DNA of 64,000 nt from Meridianimarinicoccus roseus (GTDB lineage: Bacteria > Pseudomonadota > Alphaproteobacteria > Rhodobacterales > Rhodobacteraceae): NCBI RefSeq assembly GCF_003172915.1, contig NZ_QGKU01000015.1, positions 1 through 64,000 on the forward strand, in the 5' to 3' direction. The notes below the pieces were generated by a model. That model saw only the letters and a list, made by a program, of their open reading frames with translations, was not told the DNA's origin and searched no databases. Each line of letters opens with the position of its first letter. Position 1 is the stretch's first letter. The translations under genes and the position numbers were made by a program. Shown piece after piece: positions 5,971 through 64,000 of this stretch.

Positions 5971-6953
5971 TCGCGCGGCTTGTCCCGCCCGTGTGGCGCA
6001 TCGAGGTCGAGCGCGGGGCCAACCGGAACGATGCGGTGCGGATTGATCGTCTCGTGGCTGTAGTGGTAGTGCCGCATGAAATGGTCGAACCGTACTGTGT
6101 CCGCGATACCCGGCACCTGATAGAGTTCGCGCGTGTAGGCCCACAGGTTCGGGTAATCCACAATCCGCCGACGGTTGCATTTGAAATGCCCGTGATACAC
6201 GGCGTCGAAGCGGATAAGCGTCGTGAACAAGCGCCAGTCCGCTTCGGTGAGAGTGTCGCCTGCCAGATAGCGGTTTTGGCCTAGCAAATCCTCCAGCCAG
6301 TCGAGGGTGTCGAACAGTGGCACCACTGCGTCCTCGTAGGCATCCTGCGTCGTGGCAAACCCGGCCTTGTAAACCCCGTTGTTCAGCGTGTCGTATACCC
6401 GTGCGTTCACCTCTTCGATCCGGCCGCGCAGCGGCTTCGGCCAGTAGTCGTCCGTGTTGCCGGTGAGGCCGTCGAAGGCGCTGTTGAACATGCGGATGAT
6501 TTCGGCGCTTTCGTTCGACACGATGGTGTTGGTCGCGGTGTCGTAGAGCACCGGAACCGTGACGCGGCCCGACACGTCCGGGTTCACGCCGGTGTAGAGG
6601 TCACGCAGGAAACGCCGCCCACCTTGCCGGTCTCCGGTAGCCCCGTCGAAATTGGTGTCGAAGGTCCAGCCGTCGCCCAGCATGTCGGGGTGCACCACCG
6701 AAACGTCGATATGCTGCTCAAGCCCTTTCAGAGTGCGGAAGATCAGCGCGCGATGCGCCCAGGGACAGGCGAAGCTGACATAGAGGTGATAGCGCCCGCT
6801 TTCCGCCTTGAACCCGTCCGCACCATCTGGCCCGGGCTCGCCATCGGCGGTCACCCAGCTGCGGAACTTCGATGTGTCGCGCTGGAACGCGCCGCCGGTT
6901 TCACTCGTGTCGTACCAGGTGTCTTTCCATTCGCCGTTGACCAGCTTGCCCAT
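5952..6953 (-). CDS. Glutathionyl-hydroquinone reductase (ECM4/YqjG-type GST)
   Basis: Xi-class glutathione transferase that reduces glutathionyl-hydroquinones, cytoplasmic. The 333 residues start MGKLVNGEWKDTWYDT and include SFACPWAHRALIFRTLKGLE, with the catalytic Cys in the family-defining CPWAHR motif. Later segments DYWPKPLRGRIEEVNARVYDTLNNGVYKAGFATTQ, DTLTEADWRLFTTLIRFDAVY and the C-terminal KCNRRRIVDYPNLWAYTRELYQ are all diagnostic; only their key parts are quoted. The start at 6953 has a strong AAGGAGG site six bases upstream. The gene separates the two cobalamin blocks and has no evident link with them. Its last codons overlap the convergent receiver-like gene. Confidence 0.92.
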   Translation of the reverse strand: MGKLVNGEWKDTWYDTSETGGAFQRDTSKFRSWVTADGEPGPDGADGFKAESGRYHLYVSFACPWAHRALIFRTLKGLEQHIDVSVVHPDMLGDGWTFDTNFDGATGDRQGGRRFLRDLYTGVNPDVSGRVTVPVLYDTATNTIVSNESAEIIRMFNSAFDGLTGNTDDYWPKPLRGRIEEVNARVYDTLNNGVYKAGFATTQDAYEDAVVPLFDTLDWLEDLLGQNRYLAGDTLTEADWRLFTTLIRFDAVYHGHFKCNRRRIVDYPNLWAYTRELYQVPGIADTVRFDHFMRHYHYSHETINPHRIVPVGPALDLDAPHGRDKPRDQMGAA

Positions 6954-7231
6954 GTCATCCTCCTTGTGTTGCGCAAGATATAGGCCGACGCGTGGCGCGA
7001 TGCCTGCCCTATGGGGGCGCATCCGCCCTGCGCCTGCGCACATCCGCGCGGGTGCCGAAAGGCGATTGCATGGGAGGGCGTGCTTGATATACCGACCGAG
7101 ACGACGCCATTCGGCCGGAGAGGTTGGCGGCGCAGCGGTCCGACCCAAGCAGGGGGATCGCGGCCGCATCGTCAGGGACGGCACGACCGGCCCGCAGCAT
7201 GCTCCGGCCATGAACCGACCGGAGCGGACAA

Positions 7232-55702: not shown

Positions 55703-56881
55703 TTAGCCCGGCGACATGCCGCGCAGTTTCTCGGACCGGCGGCGCAGCAGCTCCAGTGTCGTCAGCAACGCAATGGACAAGCATACCAGGATCGTCGCCA
55801 CCGCGAGGATGGTCGGGCTGATCTGTTCGCGCAGGCCAATGAACATCTGCCATGGCAGCGTTTTCTGGCTGGCCGAGCCGACAAACAGCACCACGACAAC
55901 CTCGTCGAAGGACGTGATGAAGGCGAAAAGCCCGCCCGAGATCACGCCGGGCAGGATCAGCGGCATCTGTACCCGGAAGAAGGTCGTCACCGGGTTCGCA
56001 CCCATGTTCGCCGCCGCCCGCGTGAGCGACCGGTCAAAGCCCACCAGCGTTGCGGTGACAGTGATGATGACGAAGGGGATGCCAAGCGCGGCATGGGCCA
56101 GTACGACGCCCAGATAGGTGCCCTGCAACCCGATCCGGCTGTAGAAGAAATACATCCCTGCGGCCGAGATGATCAGCGGCACGATCATCGGCGAGATCAG
56201 GATCGCCATGATCGCCTGTCGGAAAGGGACGTGTTCCGAACTCAGCCCGATAGCGGCGAGAGTGCCGAAAGATACCGCCAGAAGCGTTGCCACTGGCGCA
56301 ATCGTCAGCGAGTTGCGCAGCGCGGCCTGCCAGTCGCCGCTCTGGAAGAAGTCTTCGTAGTGCTGCATCGAGTAGCCTGCCGGATCGAGACGCAGCATTT
56401 CCGGCGTGAAGGTGAAGAAGTTCTCGGCGTTGAAGCTGAGCGGCATCACCACCACGATCGGCGCGATCAGGAAGAAGAAGATCATCCCGCAGATGACCCG
56501 GAAGGCGTAGTGCCACAGCACTTCGCCCGCAGTCAGGTAGGGCGGCAGTCCGGCGCGATAGCGGCCATCGGCCAGCCACAGCGGGAACCAGCCGAAGAAA
56601 GCCCCGAAGGCGGTCCCGACGATCAGGCCCATCACGCCGCCGACCATAAGGCCGATCAGCGCGAAGACGGCTGCAATGCCCCAACGCGTGGCGCGGCGTG
56701 GCAATTCAAGGGTCATCAGCCCATAGGCCAGCCCGGCCATCAGCGCGCCGCCCAGCAGTATGCCCAGAAGGCCTGAACCCTGTGCGGTGCCGACGAACAG
56801 CCCGGCAAAGGCTCCGGCGGCGGCCGACACGGGGCCGACGAAGGAAAAGGGCTGCTTTTTCAGCGGTAGAACGGTCGGCAT
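55703..56881 (-). CDS. ABC transporter permease, PotC-like
   Basis: The 392-residue inner-membrane permease of the spermidine/putrescine class has an unusual N-terminal extension. Residues 1-120 add about four extra hydrophobic stretches (AGLFVGTAQGSGLLGILLGGALMAG, WGIAAVFALIGLMVGGVMGLIVG) before the normal core, which begins VICGMIFFFLIAPIVVVMPLSF. The EAA loop is TRAAANMGANPVTTFFRVQMPLILPGV. It is the last gene of the importer unit, 5 bases after the PotB-like gene. The substrate is inferred from the linked creatinase. Confidence 0.9.
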   Translation of the reverse strand: MPTVLPLKKQPFSFVGPVSAAAGAFAGLFVGTAQGSGLLGILLGGALMAGLAYGLMTLELPRRATRWGIAAVFALIGLMVGGVMGLIVGTAFGAFFGWFPLWLADGRYRAGLPPYLTAGEVLWHYAFRVICGMIFFFLIAPIVVVMPLSFNAENFFTFTPEMLRLDPAGYSMQHYEDFFQSGDWQAALRNSLTIAPVATLLAVSFGTLAAIGLSSEHVPFRQAIMAILISPMIVPLIISAAGMYFFYSRIGLQGTYLGVVLAHAALGIPFVIITVTATLVGFDRSLTRAAANMGANPVTTFFRVQMPLILPGVISGGLFAFITSFDEVVVVLFVGSASQKTLPWQMFIGLREQISPTILAVATILVCLSIALLTTLELLRRRSEKLRGMSPG

Positions 56882-56886
56882 GTGAA

Positions 56887-58620
56887 TCAGCCCCCCAGTT
56901 TGACGTTGTCGATGCCGACGATGCGGTCATAGGCCCAGTAGAGGATCAGCACCGCTCCCAGCAGGATCGTGCCAAGCGCGGCGGCAAGGCCCCAGTTGAG
57001 CGAACTGGATATGTGATAGGCGATCCGGTTGGAGATGAACGTGCCGGATGTGCCGCCCACGATCTCGGGCGTGATGTAGTAGCCGATGGCAAGAATGAAC
57101 ACGAGGATCGATCCTGCGCCGATCCCCGGCACGGATTGCGGGAAATAGACCCGCCAGAATGCAGTGAACGGCGTTGCCCCCAGCGATTTTGCCGCGCGCA
57201 GATAGGACGGCTGGATTGTCTGCATCACGGAATAGAGTGGCAGGATCATGAAGGGCAGCAGGATGTGCGTCATCGCCACGATGGTACCGAACTGGTTGTT
57301 GATCATGATCAGACGGCTTTCGTCTGCGACCACGCCCAGCCAGACGAGCACGTCATTGATCACGCCCTGCTGTTGCAGCATCACCTTCCACGCGCTTGTG
57401 CGTACCAGCAGCGATGTCCAGAATGGCAGCAGTACGAGGATCATCAGCAGGTTGGCGGAACGCATCGGCAGGTTCGCCAGAAGCCACGCCACCGGATATC
57501 CCAGAAGGATGCAGCTGATCGTTATGACCATCGACATGAACAGCGTGCGCTTGAACAGCAGACCGTAAATCTGCTGGTCCTCGGGCTGGCTGACGATGCC
57601 GTCGGCGCCCAGCTTCATGTCAACGGCGGTCAGGAAGTAGCCTGACGTGTAGGACGGTGAATAGACCTTGATTGTCGCCCAGTTGTCGAGGTTGCCCCAT
57701 TCGTCGTCCGCCTCGAGGAACTGCGCCTTGCGCGTCATCGTCTCGAAGTCCGGCGCGGCCGCGTGAGCGGTCTGCAGCGCATCCGCCATTGGCCCGTCAT
57801 AGGCCGCGATATCGGCGGCGGAAGCGGCCATGAGGTCTTCATAGAGCATGGTCGAAACCAACGTCCACGGCTCGTCCTCGTCGGCGGTTTCCTCTTCCTC
57901 GGTACGCATAAAGGCCGCGTAGTGGGTGTAGGCCTGCGCTGTCTTGGGCAGAAGATCCTCGATGCCGGGTGCAAGGCGGAAGCGCGGGGCGGGCGTGTCG
58001 CGCGGGTCTATCCGGTCGGCATCGCGGCTTTCGCGCCATTCGGCCGCGTCTTCCAGGTAGCCCGGATGTGCCATCAGCGCGGCCCATGGTTCGGCTTCGT
58101 CCCAGCGTTCGTCCAAGTCCTCGAACTGGTCGAGGTAGAGGTCGCCGAAGTCGCCGACGTCGCGCCCGACGCGCCGGAACATCGACGACATGCCGGTCTG
58201 CTCATAGTTCAGGCGGCTGCCGAGGCGCGTGTGGTTCTTGTATTCCGACGCAAGGAACAGGTCGTAATACAGCGCGTCGAAAGTGGCGTCGTCCGGCAGC
58301 GTGTTGCTGGTCGCCTCCCAGTCGCTCAACTCGGCCACAGTGCGCGGCAGCGTTTCCGACACGATCTGATTTTCTACCGACCGGAACAGCATGTCCACGA
58401 TCGGTGCGATGAAGGTCACGAGAACGAAGATCAGCAGCGGTGCGATCAGCGCCAGCGCCCGAAGTTTCTGTGCCCGCAGCGCCCGGTTCAGGCTGGCCTT
58501 GAGTGGCGTGCCGTCGGCGGCAAGAACCGGCCCCGTGGCGCCGCTGTCCTGCGCCTGTCCTGAAGCGTCGTCCGGTGCCCGGCCCGATGCCCCCGCATTG
58601 GTCTGTGTCGCGTCGGCCAT
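56887..58620 (-). CDS. ABC transporter permease, PotB-like, with large periplasmic insert
   Basis: The 577-residue permease is twice the usual 280. Residues 1-50 are a polar Ala/Gly/Asp-rich cytoplasmic tail. The first helix LIAPLLIFVLVTFIAPIVDMLF is followed by about 260 acidic residues (about 77-335) with no hydrophobic helix (for example YYDLFLASEYKNHTRLGSRL and RTEEEETADEDEPW). The core then resumes with LFMSMVITISCILLGYPVAWLLA, and the EAA loop LRAAKSLGATPFTAFWRVYFPQSVPG is intact. The insert must lie in the periplasm, facing the binding protein. It is second of the two permeases after the binding-protein gene. Confidence 0.9.
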   Translation of the reverse strand: MADATQTNAGASGRAPDDASGQAQDSGATGPVLAADGTPLKASLNRALRAQKLRALALIAPLLIFVLVTFIAPIVDMLFRSVENQIVSETLPRTVAELSDWEATSNTLPDDATFDALYYDLFLASEYKNHTRLGSRLNYEQTGMSSMFRRVGRDVGDFGDLYLDQFEDLDERWDEAEPWAALMAHPGYLEDAAEWRESRDADRIDPRDTPAPRFRLAPGIEDLLPKTAQAYTHYAAFMRTEEEETADEDEPWTLVSTMLYEDLMAASAADIAAYDGPMADALQTAHAAAPDFETMTRKAQFLEADDEWGNLDNWATIKVYSPSYTSGYFLTAVDMKLGADGIVSQPEDQQIYGLLFKRTLFMSMVITISCILLGYPVAWLLANLPMRSANLLMILVLLPFWTSLLVRTSAWKVMLQQQGVINDVLVWLGVVADESRLIMINNQFGTIVAMTHILLPFMILPLYSVMQTIQPSYLRAAKSLGATPFTAFWRVYFPQSVPGIGAGSILVFILAIGYYITPEIVGGTSGTFISNRIAYHISSSLNWGLAAALGTILLGAVLILYWAYDRIVGIDNVKLGG

Positions 58621-58669
58621 GTCATCCCCGTTCGGTTCTTCTTGTTCGGTGTGTCCCAGCGGGACGGTG

Positions 58670-58693
58670 AAAAGGGGCCTTGGGGCCCCTTTT
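58670..58693 (-). terminator. Intercistronic hairpin between binding-protein and permease genes
   Basis: AAAAGGGGCC (58670-58679) pairs with GGCCCCTTTT (58684-58693) across a four-base loop. On the minus strand a T-run follows. Located between the binding-protein gene and the permeases, it probably attenuates or stabilises the message so that the binding protein is made in excess. Confidence 0.75.
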
Positions 58694-58704
58694 CGTGCGC
58701 GATG

Positions 58705-59811
58705 TTACTGAACCAGCCAGGACTGGAACTTCGCGTCAATGTCATCGCGGTAGTCTGCCCAGAACTCGTAGTTGTAGAGCAGGGTGTTCTTCGCGTTATC
58801 CGGATCGGTCGGCATGTGCGGCGCCATGGCGATCCCCAGATCGGCGTGCTCGCCGACCAGCGGCGCCGATGACTGGCGTGCCGGACCGTAAGAGATGTAC
58901 TTGGCCTGATCCGCAAGGCGCTGGGTGTCAGTGGCGAAGAACAGGAAGTCCTTCACGCGGGCCAGTTCCTCGTCGCTCAGTCCTTCGGGGATGATCCACC
59001 CGTCCAGATCGAACACCTGCATGTCCCAGAGCATCCCGACCGGCTGGTTCTGTTCCACGATCACGCTGAACAGGCGGCCGTTGTAGGTGGACCCCATCAC
59101 GACTTCGCCGTCCGCCAGAAGCTGCGGTGTGTCCGCACCGGCCGACCACCAGATCACGTCGTCCTTGATGGTGTCGAGCTTGGCCAGCGCTTGGTCCTGC
59201 CCTTCGGGCGTCGCCAGCACGTCGTAGATTTCATCCTTGGCCACGCCGTCGCAATACAGCGCCCATTCCATGTTGTTAATGGGGCGCTTTTCAAGTGCGC
59301 GCTTGCCCGGATAGGCTTCCAGGTCGAACACGGCGCAGACGTCGGTCGGCGGCGTGTCGCCCACCATGTCGGTACGATAGCCGAAGGTCGTGGAGTAGAC
59401 GATCTGCGGAATGAAGCAGTCGGACACGATCAGGTCGCCGAAATCGTCCTCGGCAGAGGTGCCGTCGGGCGCCTCGGCCAGAAGATCGTCCGGGTCGTAT
59501 TCCATCGCCAAGCCTTCGTCGCACAGGCGGATGGCGTCTGCGGCCACAACGTCCACGAGGTCCCAGGTGATGTTGCCGGCCTCGTTCATCGCGCGCAGCT
59601 TGGCCACCGCCTCGTTCGAGGATTCGTCCCAGGTCACCGTGACCTCGGGGTGCATTTCGACGTAGGGCTTGGAATAGGCCTCCTGCTGGCTGCGCTGGTA
59701 GGCGCCGCCCCAGGAGACGATCGTCATCTCATTGGACATTTCCTGCGCCACTGCCGGGCTGAACGCCACAGCGAGCGCCGTGCTTGCCAAGAAAGCGGAG
59801 GTGAGTTTCAT
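58705..59811 (-). CDS. ABC transporter periplasmic substrate-binding protein, PotD/PotF-like
   Basis: The 368-residue protein has a signal peptide (MKLTSAFLASTALAVAFSPAVA) and the polyamine-type fold: EMTIVSWGGAYQRSQQEAYSKPYVE, NITWDLVDVVAADAIRLCDEG, IVYSTTFGYRTDM, WWSAGADTPQLLADGEVVMGSTYNGRLFSV and FATDTQRLADQAKYISYGPARQSS. There are three Cys in the mature part. The many acidic residues suit a cationic ligand. With the linked creatinase, creatine or a related guanidino compound is my favoured ligand (inference). It lies between the ATPase and the permeases. Confidence 0.92.
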   Translation of the reverse strand: MKLTSAFLASTALAVAFSPAVAQEMSNEMTIVSWGGAYQRSQQEAYSKPYVEMHPEVTVTWDESSNEAVAKLRAMNEAGNITWDLVDVVAADAIRLCDEGLAMEYDPDDLLAEAPDGTSAEDDFGDLIVSDCFIPQIVYSTTFGYRTDMVGDTPPTDVCAVFDLEAYPGKRALEKRPINNMEWALYCDGVAKDEIYDVLATPEGQDQALAKLDTIKDDVIWWSAGADTPQLLADGEVVMGSTYNGRLFSVIVEQNQPVGMLWDMQVFDLDGWIIPEGLSDEELARVKDFLFFATDTQRLADQAKYISYGPARQSSAPLVGEHADLGIAMAPHMPTDPDNAKNTLLYNYEFWADYRDDIDAKFQSWLVQ

Positions 59812-59943
59812 ATTTCAGTCTTCCCCTGTTTTCCCGTGTTTGTTTGGGACCGGCGTGTCGGGCCACGGGTCGAACCGGGTCCGCCGGAAGTCCGGGCGGA
59901 TGCGCCTCAGGCGGTGCAACCGCGTCGGTCGTGTCTAGGGCGG

Positions 59944-61044
59944 TCAGGCGTCGAGCGCGCGACAGTCTTCGGGCAACCACCCGATCTCGATCTGCTGGCC
60001 CGGCTTGAGCCTGACCTGGTCCGGCGCGTTCCGGGTCTTGACGACGAAATCGTCATTGCCCGCCACGCGCAGCCGTGTCCTGAAGATATCGCCCATGTAG
60101 ATGAATTCCAGAACTTCCGCCTTCAGCGTATGGGCGTCGGGGCTCAGGCGGTCCTTGTTGTACTCGACCCGTTCGGGGCGGATTGACACTTTCGTGCGCT
60201 CGCCCGGCTTGGAAACGTTCACCGGCTTGCAGTCGATGATGTCGCCGCTGTCGAGCTGCACATGGGCAAGACCGTCCGTGATGTTCTTGACCACGCCTTC
60301 CAGCGTGTTGTTTTCGCCGATGAACTGCGCAACGAAGCTGTTCTGTGGGCTTTCGTAAAGCTCGTCCGGCGGGGCAAGCTGCTGGATGCGGCCGTCGTCG
60401 AACACGGCGACACGGTCGGACATCGTCAACGCCTCGGTCTGGTCATGGGTCACGTAGACCACTGTGATGCCCAGTTCGTGGGCCAGGCGCGTGATCTCGA
60501 ACTGCAGCGTTTCGCGCAACTGCTTGTCGAGCGCGCCGAGCGGTTCGTCCATCAGCACCAGTTCGGGTTCGAACACCAGCGCGCGCGCCAGCGCGATGCG
60601 CTGCTGCTGTCCGCCCGAAAGCTGCGCCGGGCGGCGGCCGCCGAAGGCTCCCATCTGCACCATGTCGAGCGCGCGCTTGATCTTCGCTTCGCGGTCCGAC
60701 TTGCCGATCTTGCGCACTTCCAGCGGGAAGGACAGGTTTTCCGCAACCGTCATGTGCGGGAACAGGGCGTAGTTCTGGAAGACCATGCCGATGCCGCGCT
60801 TGTGCGGCGGGATGTTGTTGATCGGTTTTCCGTCCAACAGGATCTCGCCGTGGGTGGCCGTCTCGAACCCGGCGAGCATCATCAGGCAGGTCGTCTTGCC
60901 GGACCCGGACGGCCCGAGCATCGTCAGAAATTCGCCCTTAGGCATCGCGAGGTTCAGGTCTTTGACGACCAGGGTTTCACCATCATAGCTTTTTTGCACG
61001 CGCTCGAACGCCACGAACGCGTCTGTCGATTGGTCATAGGCCAC
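59944..61044 (-). CDS. ABC transporter ATP-binding protein, PotA-like
   Basis: The 366-residue ATPase has Walker A LGPSGSGKTT, Q-loop VFQNYALFPHMTVAEN, signature LSGGQQQRIALARALVFEPELVLMDEPLGALD (only the LSGGQQQ and DEP parts are key), H-loop YVTHDQTEAL and a C-terminal TOBE_2 domain (about 285-366) ending PGQQIEIGWLPEDCRALDA. GGGGAG precedes the ATG. It is the first importer gene, 193 bases downstream of creatinase on the same strand; the gap contains two inverted repeats. Confidence 0.94.
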   Translation of the reverse strand: MAYDQSTDAFVAFERVQKSYDGETLVVKDLNLAMPKGEFLTMLGPSGSGKTTCLMMLAGFETATHGEILLDGKPINNIPPHKRGIGMVFQNYALFPHMTVAENLSFPLEVRKIGKSDREAKIKRALDMVQMGAFGGRRPAQLSGGQQQRIALARALVFEPELVLMDEPLGALDKQLRETLQFEITRLAHELGITVVYVTHDQTEALTMSDRVAVFDDGRIQQLAPPDELYESPQNSFVAQFIGENNTLEGVVKNITDGLAHVQLDSGDIIDCKPVNVSKPGERTKVSIRPERVEYNKDRLSPDAHTLKAEVLEFIYMGDIFRTRLRVAGNDDFVVKTRNAPDQVRLKPGQQIEIGWLPEDCRALDA

Positions 61045-61152
61045 GAAGGGCTCCCCGTTGCTGTGCGTTTATTGTTGGTCTTATGAAAACCCCTGCGTCC
61101 CGTGGGCGCAACCGGTTAGCGACCATTTTCAGCCAAAACCGCCCTAGGGGAT

Positions 61153-61171
61153 GCAAATGAACGGTATTTGC
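61153..61171. promoter_or_regulatory. Inverted repeat upstream of the importer genes
   Basis: GCAAAT at 61153-61158 and ATTTGC at 61166-61171 are separated by seven bases and lie about 110 bases before the potA-like start. The spacing suits a dimeric repressor; the regulator is unknown. Confidence 0.4.
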
Positions 61172-61179
61172 GCAATGAA

Positions 61180-61226
61180 CCCCGGATTTCGCCAGTCGTG
61201 GAACACCGTTAAAGGCGAATCCGGGG
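61180..61226 (-). terminator. Hairpin after the creatinase gene
   Basis: CCCCGGATTTCGCC (61180-61193) pairs with GGCGAATCCGGGG (61214-61226), 13 bp with one bulged base and a 20-base loop, 11 bases after the creatinase stop. There is no T-run, so it may be a partial terminator or an mRNA stabiliser between creatinase and the importer. Confidence 0.5.
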
Positions 61227-61237
61227 CCGAATCGTCG

Positions 61238-62458
61238 TCAGACCGCAACGATGTTGTGCGACGGGCCGTAGGGGAAGCCGGTGATGTTCTCGGCCCCGTC
61301 TTCAGTGACGATCAGGATGTCATGTTCGCGGTAACCGCCCGCGCCGGGCGTTCCCTCGGGAACCCACAGCATCGGTTCCATCGACACGACCATGCCCGGC
61401 TCCAGCGCGGTGTCGATATCCTCGCGAAGTTCCAGCCCTGCCTCACGGCCGTAATAGTGCGACAGCACCCCGAACGAATGGCCGTATCCGAAGGACCGGT
61501 ACTGCAGAAGCCCCATGTCGGTCAGCGCGGCGTTCAGCTCCGCGCAGATGCCCGCGCAGGTCATGCCGGGGCGGATCAGAGACAGGCCCAATTCGTGGAT
61601 GGCGACATTCGCCTCCCAGACCTTGCACGAGGCAGCGTCTGGTTCGCCCAGGAACAACGTGCGTTCCAGTGCCGTGTAATAGCCCGAGATCATCGGGAAG
61701 GTGTTCAGGCTCAGGATGTCGCCGCCTTGCAGCGCGCGGGTCGTCACCGGGTTGTGTGCGCCATCGGTGTTCAGTCCAGACTGGAACCAGACCCAGCTGT
61801 CGCGCAGTTCGCTGTCGGGATGGGCGCGCGCGATTTCGGCCTCCATCGCGTCGCGACCGGCCATCGCCACGTCGATCTCGCGGGTGCCTTCGCGGATCGC
61901 CTCGCGCACTGCGGCGCCGCCGAGGTCGGCAATGCGCGCGCCCTCGCGGATCAGCGCGATTTCCACGTTCGACTTGCGCATCCGGATCGCCATCGTCGCA
62001 TCGGCGATATCCACGGTTTCGGGAGCGCCAAGGAAATCTGCCAGTTTGCCGGCTTGCAGCAGCGTCAGGTGATCGCCTTCGATCCCGATTCGCCGCACCC
62101 CGCCCGAAAGGTCACGGACAGCGCGCCAGTAGTTGTCGCGCGCCCAGTCAGTGTAGATCACGTTGTCGCCCACCGATCGGCGCCACGGCTGGCCCGCGTC
62201 GATATTCGCGCTGACCGTGGTGCAGGCGTCCTGCGTGACGACACAGCCATAGGGCCGACCGAAGCTGCAATAGAGGAACCCGCTGAAATACGCGATGTTG
62301 TGCATGGAGGTGAGCAGGACAACGGGAATGTCCCGTGCAGCCATCGCGGCGCGCAGGGCGGCAAGGCGGCGGTCGTATTCCGTGCGGGGGAACGGAAGCG
62401 GGCCCTTCTCGCCGTTGTGGCAGGTGAAGGTCGCGGGGCGGATAAGGGTGTTTGTCAT
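61238..62458 (-). CDS. Creatinase (creatine amidinohydrolase)
   Basis: Hydrolyses creatine to sarcosine and urea; a metal-independent member of the M24 pita-bread fold. The 406 residues align throughout with Pseudomonas creatinase as I remember it: HNIAYFSGFLYCSFGRPYG, SANIDAGQPWRRSVGDN, IYTDWARDNYW, GLNTDGAHNPVTT with the catalytic His (235 here, 232 in P. putida), LSLNTFPMISGYYTALERTLF, YGHSFGVLSHYYGREAGLE and VVSMEPMLWVPEGTPGAGGYREHDILIV (key parts). The N-terminal domain is also present. ATG 62458 gives the normal N-terminus; the frame is open upstream. It is followed on the same strand by a four-gene ABC importer, suggesting uptake and use of creatine as nitrogen and carbon source. Confidence 0.9.
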   Translation of the reverse strand: MTNTLIRPATFTCHNGEKGPLPFPRTEYDRRLAALRAAMAARDIPVVLLTSMHNIAYFSGFLYCSFGRPYGCVVTQDACTTVSANIDAGQPWRRSVGDNVIYTDWARDNYWRAVRDLSGGVRRIGIEGDHLTLLQAGKLADFLGAPETVDIADATMAIRMRKSNVEIALIREGARIADLGGAAVREAIREGTREIDVAMAGRDAMEAEIARAHPDSELRDSWVWFQSGLNTDGAHNPVTTRALQGGDILSLNTFPMISGYYTALERTLFLGEPDAASCKVWEANVAIHELGLSLIRPGMTCAGICAELNAALTDMGLLQYRSFGYGHSFGVLSHYYGREAGLELREDIDTALEPGMVVSMEPMLWVPEGTPGAGGYREHDILIVTEDGAENITGFPYGPSHNIVAV

Positions 62459-62596: not shown

Positions 62597-63361
62597 TCAA
62601 GCGCCTTGCGCGGGCTCTGGCAGCCGGACGCGTGCATCGCCCGCTTCAAGGTCGCCTTGTGCCCGATCGAAGCGCAGATAGGCGATGCCGGCCCCGCCCG
62701 ATTGGGTATAGAGCGTCCCGGCCGGCTTTCCTTCCGAGGTGATCGCCGTGCCCACCGGCGCGCTGCCGTCCACCGCCACACGCGCGAGCCCTTTGCGCAA
62801 TTCCGTCTTGTGCTTCATCCTCGCGGTGACTTCCTGCCCGACATAGCAGCCCTTGCGGAAATCGACGCCGTTCAGCCGTTCGAACCCGGCCTCCAGAATG
62901 AAGGTCGCGTCCGGCAGCAGCTCGATCCCGGTTTCCGGGATCATGTGCAGCACGCGCAGCGCGTCCCAGTCCGCGGGAGCGATGTCGCCGGTCTGCATGG
63001 AACCATAGGCGCGCCAGCCAAGCGCCTGGTGCCGTGGATCGGCGAACGCGCCGTCGGGCGCGTCGCCCGTCCCGCGCGAAACCTTCAGATCGGTCTGCGC
63101 GATCGTCACATCGGCGCGCAGCTTGTACATCGACAGGCGCTTGAACAGCCCCGCTGCGAGCGGTTCGGCCACGTCCAGCAGGATCGCGTCCGCGCCATCG
63201 GGCACCAGAAAGAAATCGGCCAGCAGCTTGCCCTGCGGGGTCAGCATCGCGGCATAGACCGCGCCTTCGTTCAGGCGGCGCACGTCGTTGGTGACAAGGC
63301 CCTGCAGGAACTGTATCCGGTCGGGCCCGGCAATGCGGAAGATGCGGCGGGATCGGGTCAT
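62597..63361 (-). CDS. ygfZ: Folate-binding Fe-S maturation protein YgfZ
   Basis: The 254-residue GcvT-like protein helps Fe-S enzyme maturation with tetrahydrofolate. It begins with a GcvT-type IFRIAGPDRIQFLQGLVTNDV and contains TPQGKLLADFFLV and the diagnostic KGCYVGQEVTARMKHK with the reactive Cys. The C-terminal barrel includes SEGKPAGTLYTQSGGAGIAYLRFD. The ATG at 63361 fits family starts; the frame is open upstream. It lies between creatinase and the phosphatase gene on the same strand. Confidence 0.94.
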   Translation of the reverse strand: MTRSRRIFRIAGPDRIQFLQGLVTNDVRRLNEGAVYAAMLTPQGKLLADFFLVPDGADAILLDVAEPLAAGLFKRLSMYKLRADVTIAQTDLKVSRGTGDAPDGAFADPRHQALGWRAYGSMQTGDIAPADWDALRVLHMIPETGIELLPDATFILEAGFERLNGVDFRKGCYVGQEVTARMKHKTELRKGLARVAVDGSAPVGTAITSEGKPAGTLYTQSGGAGIAYLRFDRAQGDLEAGDARVRLPEPAQGA

Positions 63362-63417
63362 CGCGGGTCCTTTTCCTTTCGGGTCGATATAGGCACGCGG
63401 ACGGTGCCGCGACAGGG

Positions 63418-64000
63418 TCAGGCGCGCTTCGCGTCCCAGCTTTCCGTCAGCGCCACGTGGTCGTACCGCGTTTCCAGCCAGGTTTCGAAGGACATCGGCT
63501 GCGTTTCCGTTTCCGCTTCGTAGACGTCGAAGACATGATCCAGCACGCCCGTGTCGGTGGAGGCGAGATGCATGTATTTCCAATGAAGTTGCCGACGCGC
63601 CAGTGCCACCGGCACGCCTTCGATCACCGCAAGATACAGCGCCGATGCGAAGCCGGCCCGATCCGCCCCCGACTTGCAATGCAGCACGAACGGCTTTTCC
63701 ACCGTCCGCATCAGCGCGATCAGTTCGAGGATGTTTTCGCGGGGGACCAGCTTGCGCGCGCTCAGCGTGATGTTGTGCAGATGCAGGCCCAGCCGTGCAC
63801 ATGCCTCCTGTTCGAACAGATAGGGGCTTTGCTGCACCGCGCCGCGCAGGTTGATGACGCTGCGGATCCCCATGCGGTGATAACGTTTCAGCCTGCGTGG
63901 CGACGGCTGGTTCGACCGCCACACTCCCGGCGCGATCTCGAACAGGTTCCACCACACGATCCGCAGGAATGCGTGGTCCAGCAACTGGAAATGCCACCAC
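63418..64000 (-). CDS. Dual-specificity / tyrosine phosphatase family protein (5' partial)
   Basis: At least 193 residues are visible. The catalytic loop is HCKSGADRAGFASALYLAV (HCxxGxxR), preceded by EIAPGVWRSNQPSPRRLKRYHRMGIRSVINLRG, the DSP/SIW14-like substrate face (key residues W, RS-QP and INLRG). The only start-like codon near the edge is a TTG at 63984, but the frame remains open to the end of the window and reads WWHFQLLDHAFLRIVWWN, which continues family-like sequence, so the start lies outside. The late part MHLASTDTGVLDHVFDVYE is typical of the Rhodobacterales group. Confidence 0.88.
   Translation of the reverse strand, partial: WWHFQLLDHAFLRIVWWNLFEIAPGVWRSNQPSPRRLKRYHRMGIRSVINLRGAVQQSPYLFEQEACARLGLHLHNITLSARKLVPRENILELIALMRTVEKPFVLHCKSGADRAGFASALYLAVIEGVPVALARRQLHWKYMHLASTDTGVLDHVFDVYEAETETQPMSFETWLETRYDHVALTESWDAKRA

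Follow-up and report, generated by a model that had tools for sequence, protein, structure and literature searches.

The window (the whole stretch of 64,000 nucleotides that was analysed) carries a creatinase gene and, behind it on the same strand, the four genes of an ABC transporter, and it seems on balance probable that the latter takes up small zwitterions as substrates for M24 hydrolases. Its likely cargo at this locus is creatine, which would be held in a site made by Arg246 and an acidic residue and passed on to the creatinase. All five genes lie on the minus strand and follow one another in transcription as creatinase, PotA-like ATPase, binding protein, permease and permease, an arrangement proposed in a sequence-only reading of the window and confirmed by the gene calls and their coordinates:

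61238..62458, minus strand: creatinase (creatine amidinohydrolase), 406 amino acids; 61% identity to 1chm over 397 residues
59944..61044, minus strand: PotA-like ABC ATPase with a TOBE_2 domain, 366 amino acids, GTG start; TIGR01187 at 373.8 bits (cut-off 355.6)
58705..59811, minus strand: periplasmic binding protein (SBP_bac_8), 368 amino acids, nearest to GABA/opine-binding proteins; PF13416 at 190.6 bits, best Foldseek match 8jv1 (E 3.5e-32)
59074..59076, minus strand: codon for Arg246, in the NGR motif of the binding protein; this Arg is present in all 16 creatinase-linked and all 40 unlinked proteins compared and aligns with a PotF-type Asp
59002..59004, minus strand: codon of Asp270 of the binding protein, putative acidic partner residue, invariant in 56 of 56 proteins
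56887..58620, minus strand: PotB-like permease, 577 amino acids, its permease domain (PF00528 at residues 374-567) preceded by a long insert; PotB model at 166.3 bits, below its cut-off of 348
57586..58353, minus strand: some 255 inserted residues (approximately 90-345) of the PotB-like permease, from the homologue alignment
55703..56881, minus strand: PotC-like permease, 392 amino acids, with about 125 extra N-terminal residues (PF00528 at residues 203-382); PotC model at 146.2 bits, below its cut-off of 326, matching from residue 132

The gaps between the genes, from the creatinase to the last permease, are 193, 132, 84 and 5 bp, and co-transcription of the creatinase with the transporter genes is possible. 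No terminator-like site was found in the 193-bp gap by a simple scan, which itself tells little (9 sites in the region compared to 5.5 in shuffled sequences). Upstream of the creatinase on the same strand, positions 62597-63984 encode a YgfZ/CAF17-like protein and a tyrosine-phosphatase-like protein.

The first gene is securely predicted to encode a creatinase (EC 3.5.3.3), set well apart from prolidases and ectoine hydrolase. It matched the solved creatinases 7yto, 1chm and 1kp0 with E values of 7e-159 to 3e-149 (5e-157 for 1chm), compared to 7e-25 or weaker for the next solved relatives, which are prolidases, and 2e-15 for the ectoine hydrolase DoeA. It is identical to the P. putida creatinase 1chm at 242 of 397 aligned residues, has Pro at position 252 as does the Pseudomonas enzyme, and keeps all nine of the residues that we take to form the Pseudomonas active site (Phe62, Arg64, His232, Tyr258, Glu262, His324, Arg335, Glu358 and His376). 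The catalytic His and the GAHNPVTT, ERTLF and SMEPM stretches, on which the enzyme had been named a creatinase from sequence, are all present with the GAHNP His aligning with Pseudomonas His232, and this alignment and the overall identity bear the assignment out. Among its NCBIfam hits there was no creatinase model, the best being other M24 enzymes far below their cut-offs. It is thus like the P. putida and Alcaligenes-type creatinases (1chm, 1kp0, 7yto) in identity and active-site residues but differs in its surroundings, as it adjoins an ABC importer whereas the neighbour described for the P. putida NBRC 14164 creatinase, in the available portion of the source, is an MFS gene (PMC8864220).

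A bacterial genome collection yielded at least 592 confirmed creatinase loci, and of the best 80 (numbered here with the prefix L) 15 contained all four transporter genes, at 49-90% identity (L006, L008, L009, L010, L011, L012, L014, L017, L019, L023, L024, L026, L028, L039 and L078), including loci from Sulfitobacter, Ruegeria, Aliiroseovarius and one SAR116 bacterium. The transporter was absent from the other 65, of which 21 span less than 15 kb. The creatinase gene lies upstream of the ATPase gene in the window, L006, L019 and L023, is parted from it by an aminotransferase gene in L010, L011 and L014, comes after the last permease in L008, L009, L012 and L017, and is divergent in L039 and L078. 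Within the family, 209 of 248 genomes have the binding protein (at E 1e-60) and 165 a creatinase (at E 1e-80), and the two lie no more than 6.1 kb apart in at least 15 of the 248 and 12.4 kb apart in one more; the figure of 15 is a lower bound, with positions listed for the creatinase in 149 of the 165 genomes and for the binding protein in 146 of the 209, and a separate count from 28 hand-picked pairs gave the same 15 genomes. The linkage is therefore not a peculiarity of one genome, which the sequence-only reading had named as an outcome that would count against it. Random placement in independent 4 Mb genomes would give an expected 0.34 such cases among the 112 genomes with both genes, although this overstates the strength of the linkage because the genomes are related. 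With the binding protein counted at 60% identity or more (137 genomes), and ignoring kinship, 112 of the 248 genomes have both proteins, 25 the binding protein only, 53 the creatinase only and 58 neither (odds ratio 4.9).

When linkage was mapped onto a tree of the binding proteins (55 rows, L039 left out) 8 changes were needed, at least 7 of them being forced by well supported branches, and on a quick tree of the creatinases (81 rows) 7 were needed with at least 3 forced, so that linkage has been repeatedly gained or lost. The window's creatinase is sister to that of L006 (support 99), but the binding proteins of these two loci do not group as sisters.

A structure model of the binding protein, built from 15 homologues (mean pLDDT 85.6), had as its best solved match 8jv1, which is titled SAR11 PotD in complex with GABA, followed by the opine-binding MotA and AgtB, Atu4243 with GABA and the iGABASnFR sensors. 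A profile search (9 hits) ranked the same GABA/opine set, and no NCBIfam family, polyamine models included, was assigned to the protein. Three residues, Arg246 (in the NGR motif), Asp268 and Asp270, do not vary among the 16 creatinase-linked and 40 unlinked proteins, and five solved relatives have Arg opposite Arg246 and Asp or Glu opposite Asp270. In GABA binders that Arg holds the GABA carboxylate. By best fold and sequence match, and by its Arg and acidic site residue with their roles taken from general background, the protein belongs to the GABA/opine type; it shares the fold, the NGR Arg and the downstream acidic residue with the GABA-binding proteins SAR11 PotD (8jv1), Atu4243 (4euo, 4eq7) and the iGABASnFR scaffold (6dgv, 9d57) but differs from them in its partner enzymes and is 22-37% identical to them in the Foldseek list. 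Judged from its residues, the site would suit a small zwitterion, and creatine, GABA and ectoine are all zwitterions. None of the tabulated alignment columns separates creatinase-linked from other binding proteins, and a search at E 0.001 found only one binding protein of this type in the window's genome. A creatine-specific clade of binding proteins was considered and rejected, as the linked proteins are scattered on the tree, with the forced changes given above, and the nearest relatives of the window's protein are unlinked (86% to that of L087). Locus L089 (G002:C23:54933-57273) has two tandem binding-protein genes of this type, 82% and 71% identical to that of the window.

The importer encoded by the four transporter genes would thus have a periplasmic protein binding a small zwitterion, in which, going by the solved relatives, Arg246 would hold the carboxylate and an acidic residue such as Asp270 the positive end. 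Creatine would enter at the window locus, the adjacent creatinase would split it into sarcosine and urea, and sarcosine oxidase and urease encoded elsewhere in the genome would finish the breakdown. The window's genome encodes two sarcosine oxidase alpha subunits of the SoxA type (1553.8 and 1260.3 bits, cut-off 1164), a urease alpha subunit and a creatininase-family protein, so that the breakdown products of creatine have an outlet.

Creatinase is one of several partners of this transporter. Forty loci without creatinase linkage (L085-L124), hand-picked among the 137 genomes with a binding protein of at least 60% identity and mostly of high identity, contained a DoeA-like M24 hydrolase in 21 cases; 18 have an acetylornithine-deacetylase-like M20 enzyme, 9 a class-III aminotransferase and 7 a separate PotF-type protein. 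Across the 137 genomes, a DoeA-like enzyme lies within 10 kb of the binding-protein gene in 39 (from 91 rows of a longer list, most rows below 60% identity being left out), a creatinase within 6.1 kb in at least 15, both in 3 and either in 51. The DoeA-like partner is the commoner, and a transporter specific to creatinase, as the sequence-only reading could be understood to propose, is not upheld. A second M24 enzyme occurs in 8 of the 15 creatinase-linked loci, and a DoeA-like enzyme in four of them (L010, L011, L019 and L078). A third kind of M24 enzyme together with a EutA-like protein (142.9 bits, cut-off 318) is encoded upstream of the transporter in L008 (2311-4169), L009, L012, L017 and L019. 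A small DUF1330 gene lies near the binding-protein and permease genes in nine loci (L008, at 6698-6988, L014, L091, L099, L100, L105, L108, L116 and L120) and is absent from the window's 84-bp gap. SoxA is among the recurrent neighbours within 5 kb in 7 of the 65 creatinase loci without this transporter, and no recurrent transporter was recognised by eye among the listed neighbours of those 65.

An importer for omega-amino acids in general, GABA among them, with the creatinase adjacent for reasons besides a shared substrate, would fit the structural ranking headed by SAR11 PotD with GABA and continued by Atu4243 and the iGABASnFR sensors, and also the class-III aminotransferase near 9 of the 40 unlinked loci. 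We consider it unlikely, as the creatinase linkage recurs on both trees and the commonest recurrent enzyme partners are M24 hydrolases (21 of the 40).

Rather improbable too, in our judgement, is an importer of ectoine or another cyclic amidine with the DoeA-like M24 enzyme as its ancestral partner, to which creatinase was added by chance or for a minor second substrate. The 39 of 137 genomes with a DoeA-like enzyme within 10 kb, usually accompanied by the M20 enzyme (18 of 40 loci), speak for it. These enzymes match solved DoeA with an E value of 4e-155, and their scores against the ectoine hydrolase model, which has a cut-off of 613, are 542-621 bits in 19 of the 20 genomes inspected and 722 bits in the other one. 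The cut-off is passed in only 3 of the 20, however, and missed in 17, leaving the substrate of most of these enzymes unsure, and the single DoeA-like enzyme of the window's genome is encoded on another contig than the transporter. Furthermore, in the available text of a transporter mutant screen in R. pomeroyi, in which PotFGHI was validated for polyamines and UehABC for ectoine, this known ectoine system is a different transporter, and its main text as available never uses the word “creatine” (PMC10130141). Ectoine hydrolase DoeA (6twk, 6twj) has the M24 fold in common with creatinase, and a relative of DoeA accompanies this importer more often than any other partner, but DoeA belongs to another enzyme branch (30% identity) and is not in the window. 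The DoeA-like gene of the window's genome (G000:C19:49921-51078; L125, L132) is not near the transporter and has as neighbours an M20 gene and, in divergent orientation, a dehydratase-like gene.

The annotation had first suggested a polyamine importer, and the sequence-only reading likewise took the system as a polyamine-type carrier of small cations, a premise we have dropped since the binding protein groups with GABA/opine binders and matches no NCBIfam polyamine model. The Pot layout of ATPase, binding protein and two permeases together is present, and the TIGR01187 cut-off for the PotA subfamily is passed, but this is the only Pot model to be so, the equivalog cut-offs being missed for PotA (PRK09452, 353.4 bits compared to 482), PotB and PotC. 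The system therefore resembles PotFGHI and PotABCD in subunit layout and ATPase subfamily, and differs from them in the site and fold ranking of the binding protein and in permeases that score far below the PotB and PotC cut-offs and have extra segments. Six PotF-type proteins encoded in the loci compared carry, opposite Arg246, an Asp (in a weak profile alignment; probability 22%, E 0.00095) that is presumably PotF Asp247. In PotF that Asp holds an amine of putrescine, and all 56 proteins of the window's type have Arg at this place. Despite the four-subunit Pot layout, the PotA subfamily match and a closest solved relative deposited as a spermidine/putrescine-binding protein, an importer of polyamines as annotated is highly improbable and was set aside, as polyamine-bound structures appear only from rank 35 of the fold search (E 7e-16 compared to 3.5e-32), Arg replaces the PotF-type Asp in that weak alignment, and a separate PotF-type protein lies near the transporter in 7 of 40 unlinked loci. 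One source, in its available part, assigns SAR11 PotD to polyamine transport, possibly meaning another protein than 8jv1 (PMC8437039). The label “spermidine/putrescine transporter” in marine gene surveys should be equated with polyamine uptake only with caution.

The insert of the PotB-like permease (57586-58353) is kept in 5 of 5 aligned homologues, is far less conserved than the remainder and is predicted to be helical; a structure model of it was discarded (pLDDT 51.0). The extra N-terminal residues of the PotC-like permease (55703-56881) are hydrophobic and lie ahead of the PotC match.

Returning to creatine, the linkage and the site make it the likely cargo at the window locus. Against this stand the 25 of 137 binding-protein genomes that lack a creatinase, the majority of the best 80 creatinase loci that lack this transporter (65, 21 of them under 15 kb), the greater frequency of the DoeA-like partner with no column to separate the binding proteins, and the name spermidine/putrescine-binding protein given by the depositors to the closest solved relative. 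Creatine as sole cargo of the whole transporter family was rejected on the first of these grounds, and the importer probably carries more than creatine, as loci with a DoeA-like M24 enzyme have the same tabulated residues. Of the original interpretation, the creatinase and its linkage beyond this genome have stood, while the polyamine premise and a transporter dedicated to creatinase have not.

It had also been remarked that no bacterial creatine importer was known, which is outdated, since the MFS protein CreT of Corynebacterium glutamicum ATCC 14067 is reported, in the accessible portion of the paper, to be required for growth on creatine nitrogen (PMC8864220). CreT and the window's transporter are alike in proposed creatine uptake and in the nearness of their genes to creatine-metabolism genes, but CreT is a single MFS protein and the window encodes a four-gene ABC importer without the MFS fold. 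No ABC importer of creatine was found in the open-access literature, which is no proof of absence, subscription papers lying outside this scope. Enrichment of creatine genes has been reported for SAR11 of the Red Sea (PMC3686209) and for sponge microbiomes (PMC6742649), and the available parts of these two papers do not mention this transporter with them.

Creatine use by marine bacteria has been reported, and Roseobacter denitrificans OCh114 uses creatine nitrogen without a CreT homologue, for which reason its uptake route is stated to be unknown in the text available (PMC8864220), leaving room for another one. The recurrence of the creatinase-importer pairing in other bacteria makes it a good candidate for, and a predicted, creatine uptake route. 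Creatine and ectoine are alike in being zwitterions whose cationic group is guanidinium or amidinium, as creatinase and DoeA are in being M24 hydrolases, suggesting to us the more tentative idea, possible but short of probable, that one importer family with a fixed zwitterion site may be an exchangeable front end for M24 amidine and guanidine hydrolases (creatinase, the DoeA-like enzymes and the third M24 enzyme with its EutA-like neighbour), so that the enzyme, not the transporter, would be swapped for a new nitrogen-rich osmolyte; the window would then represent the variant for creatine, and might provide the route of uptake that is missing in marine bacteria lacking CreT.
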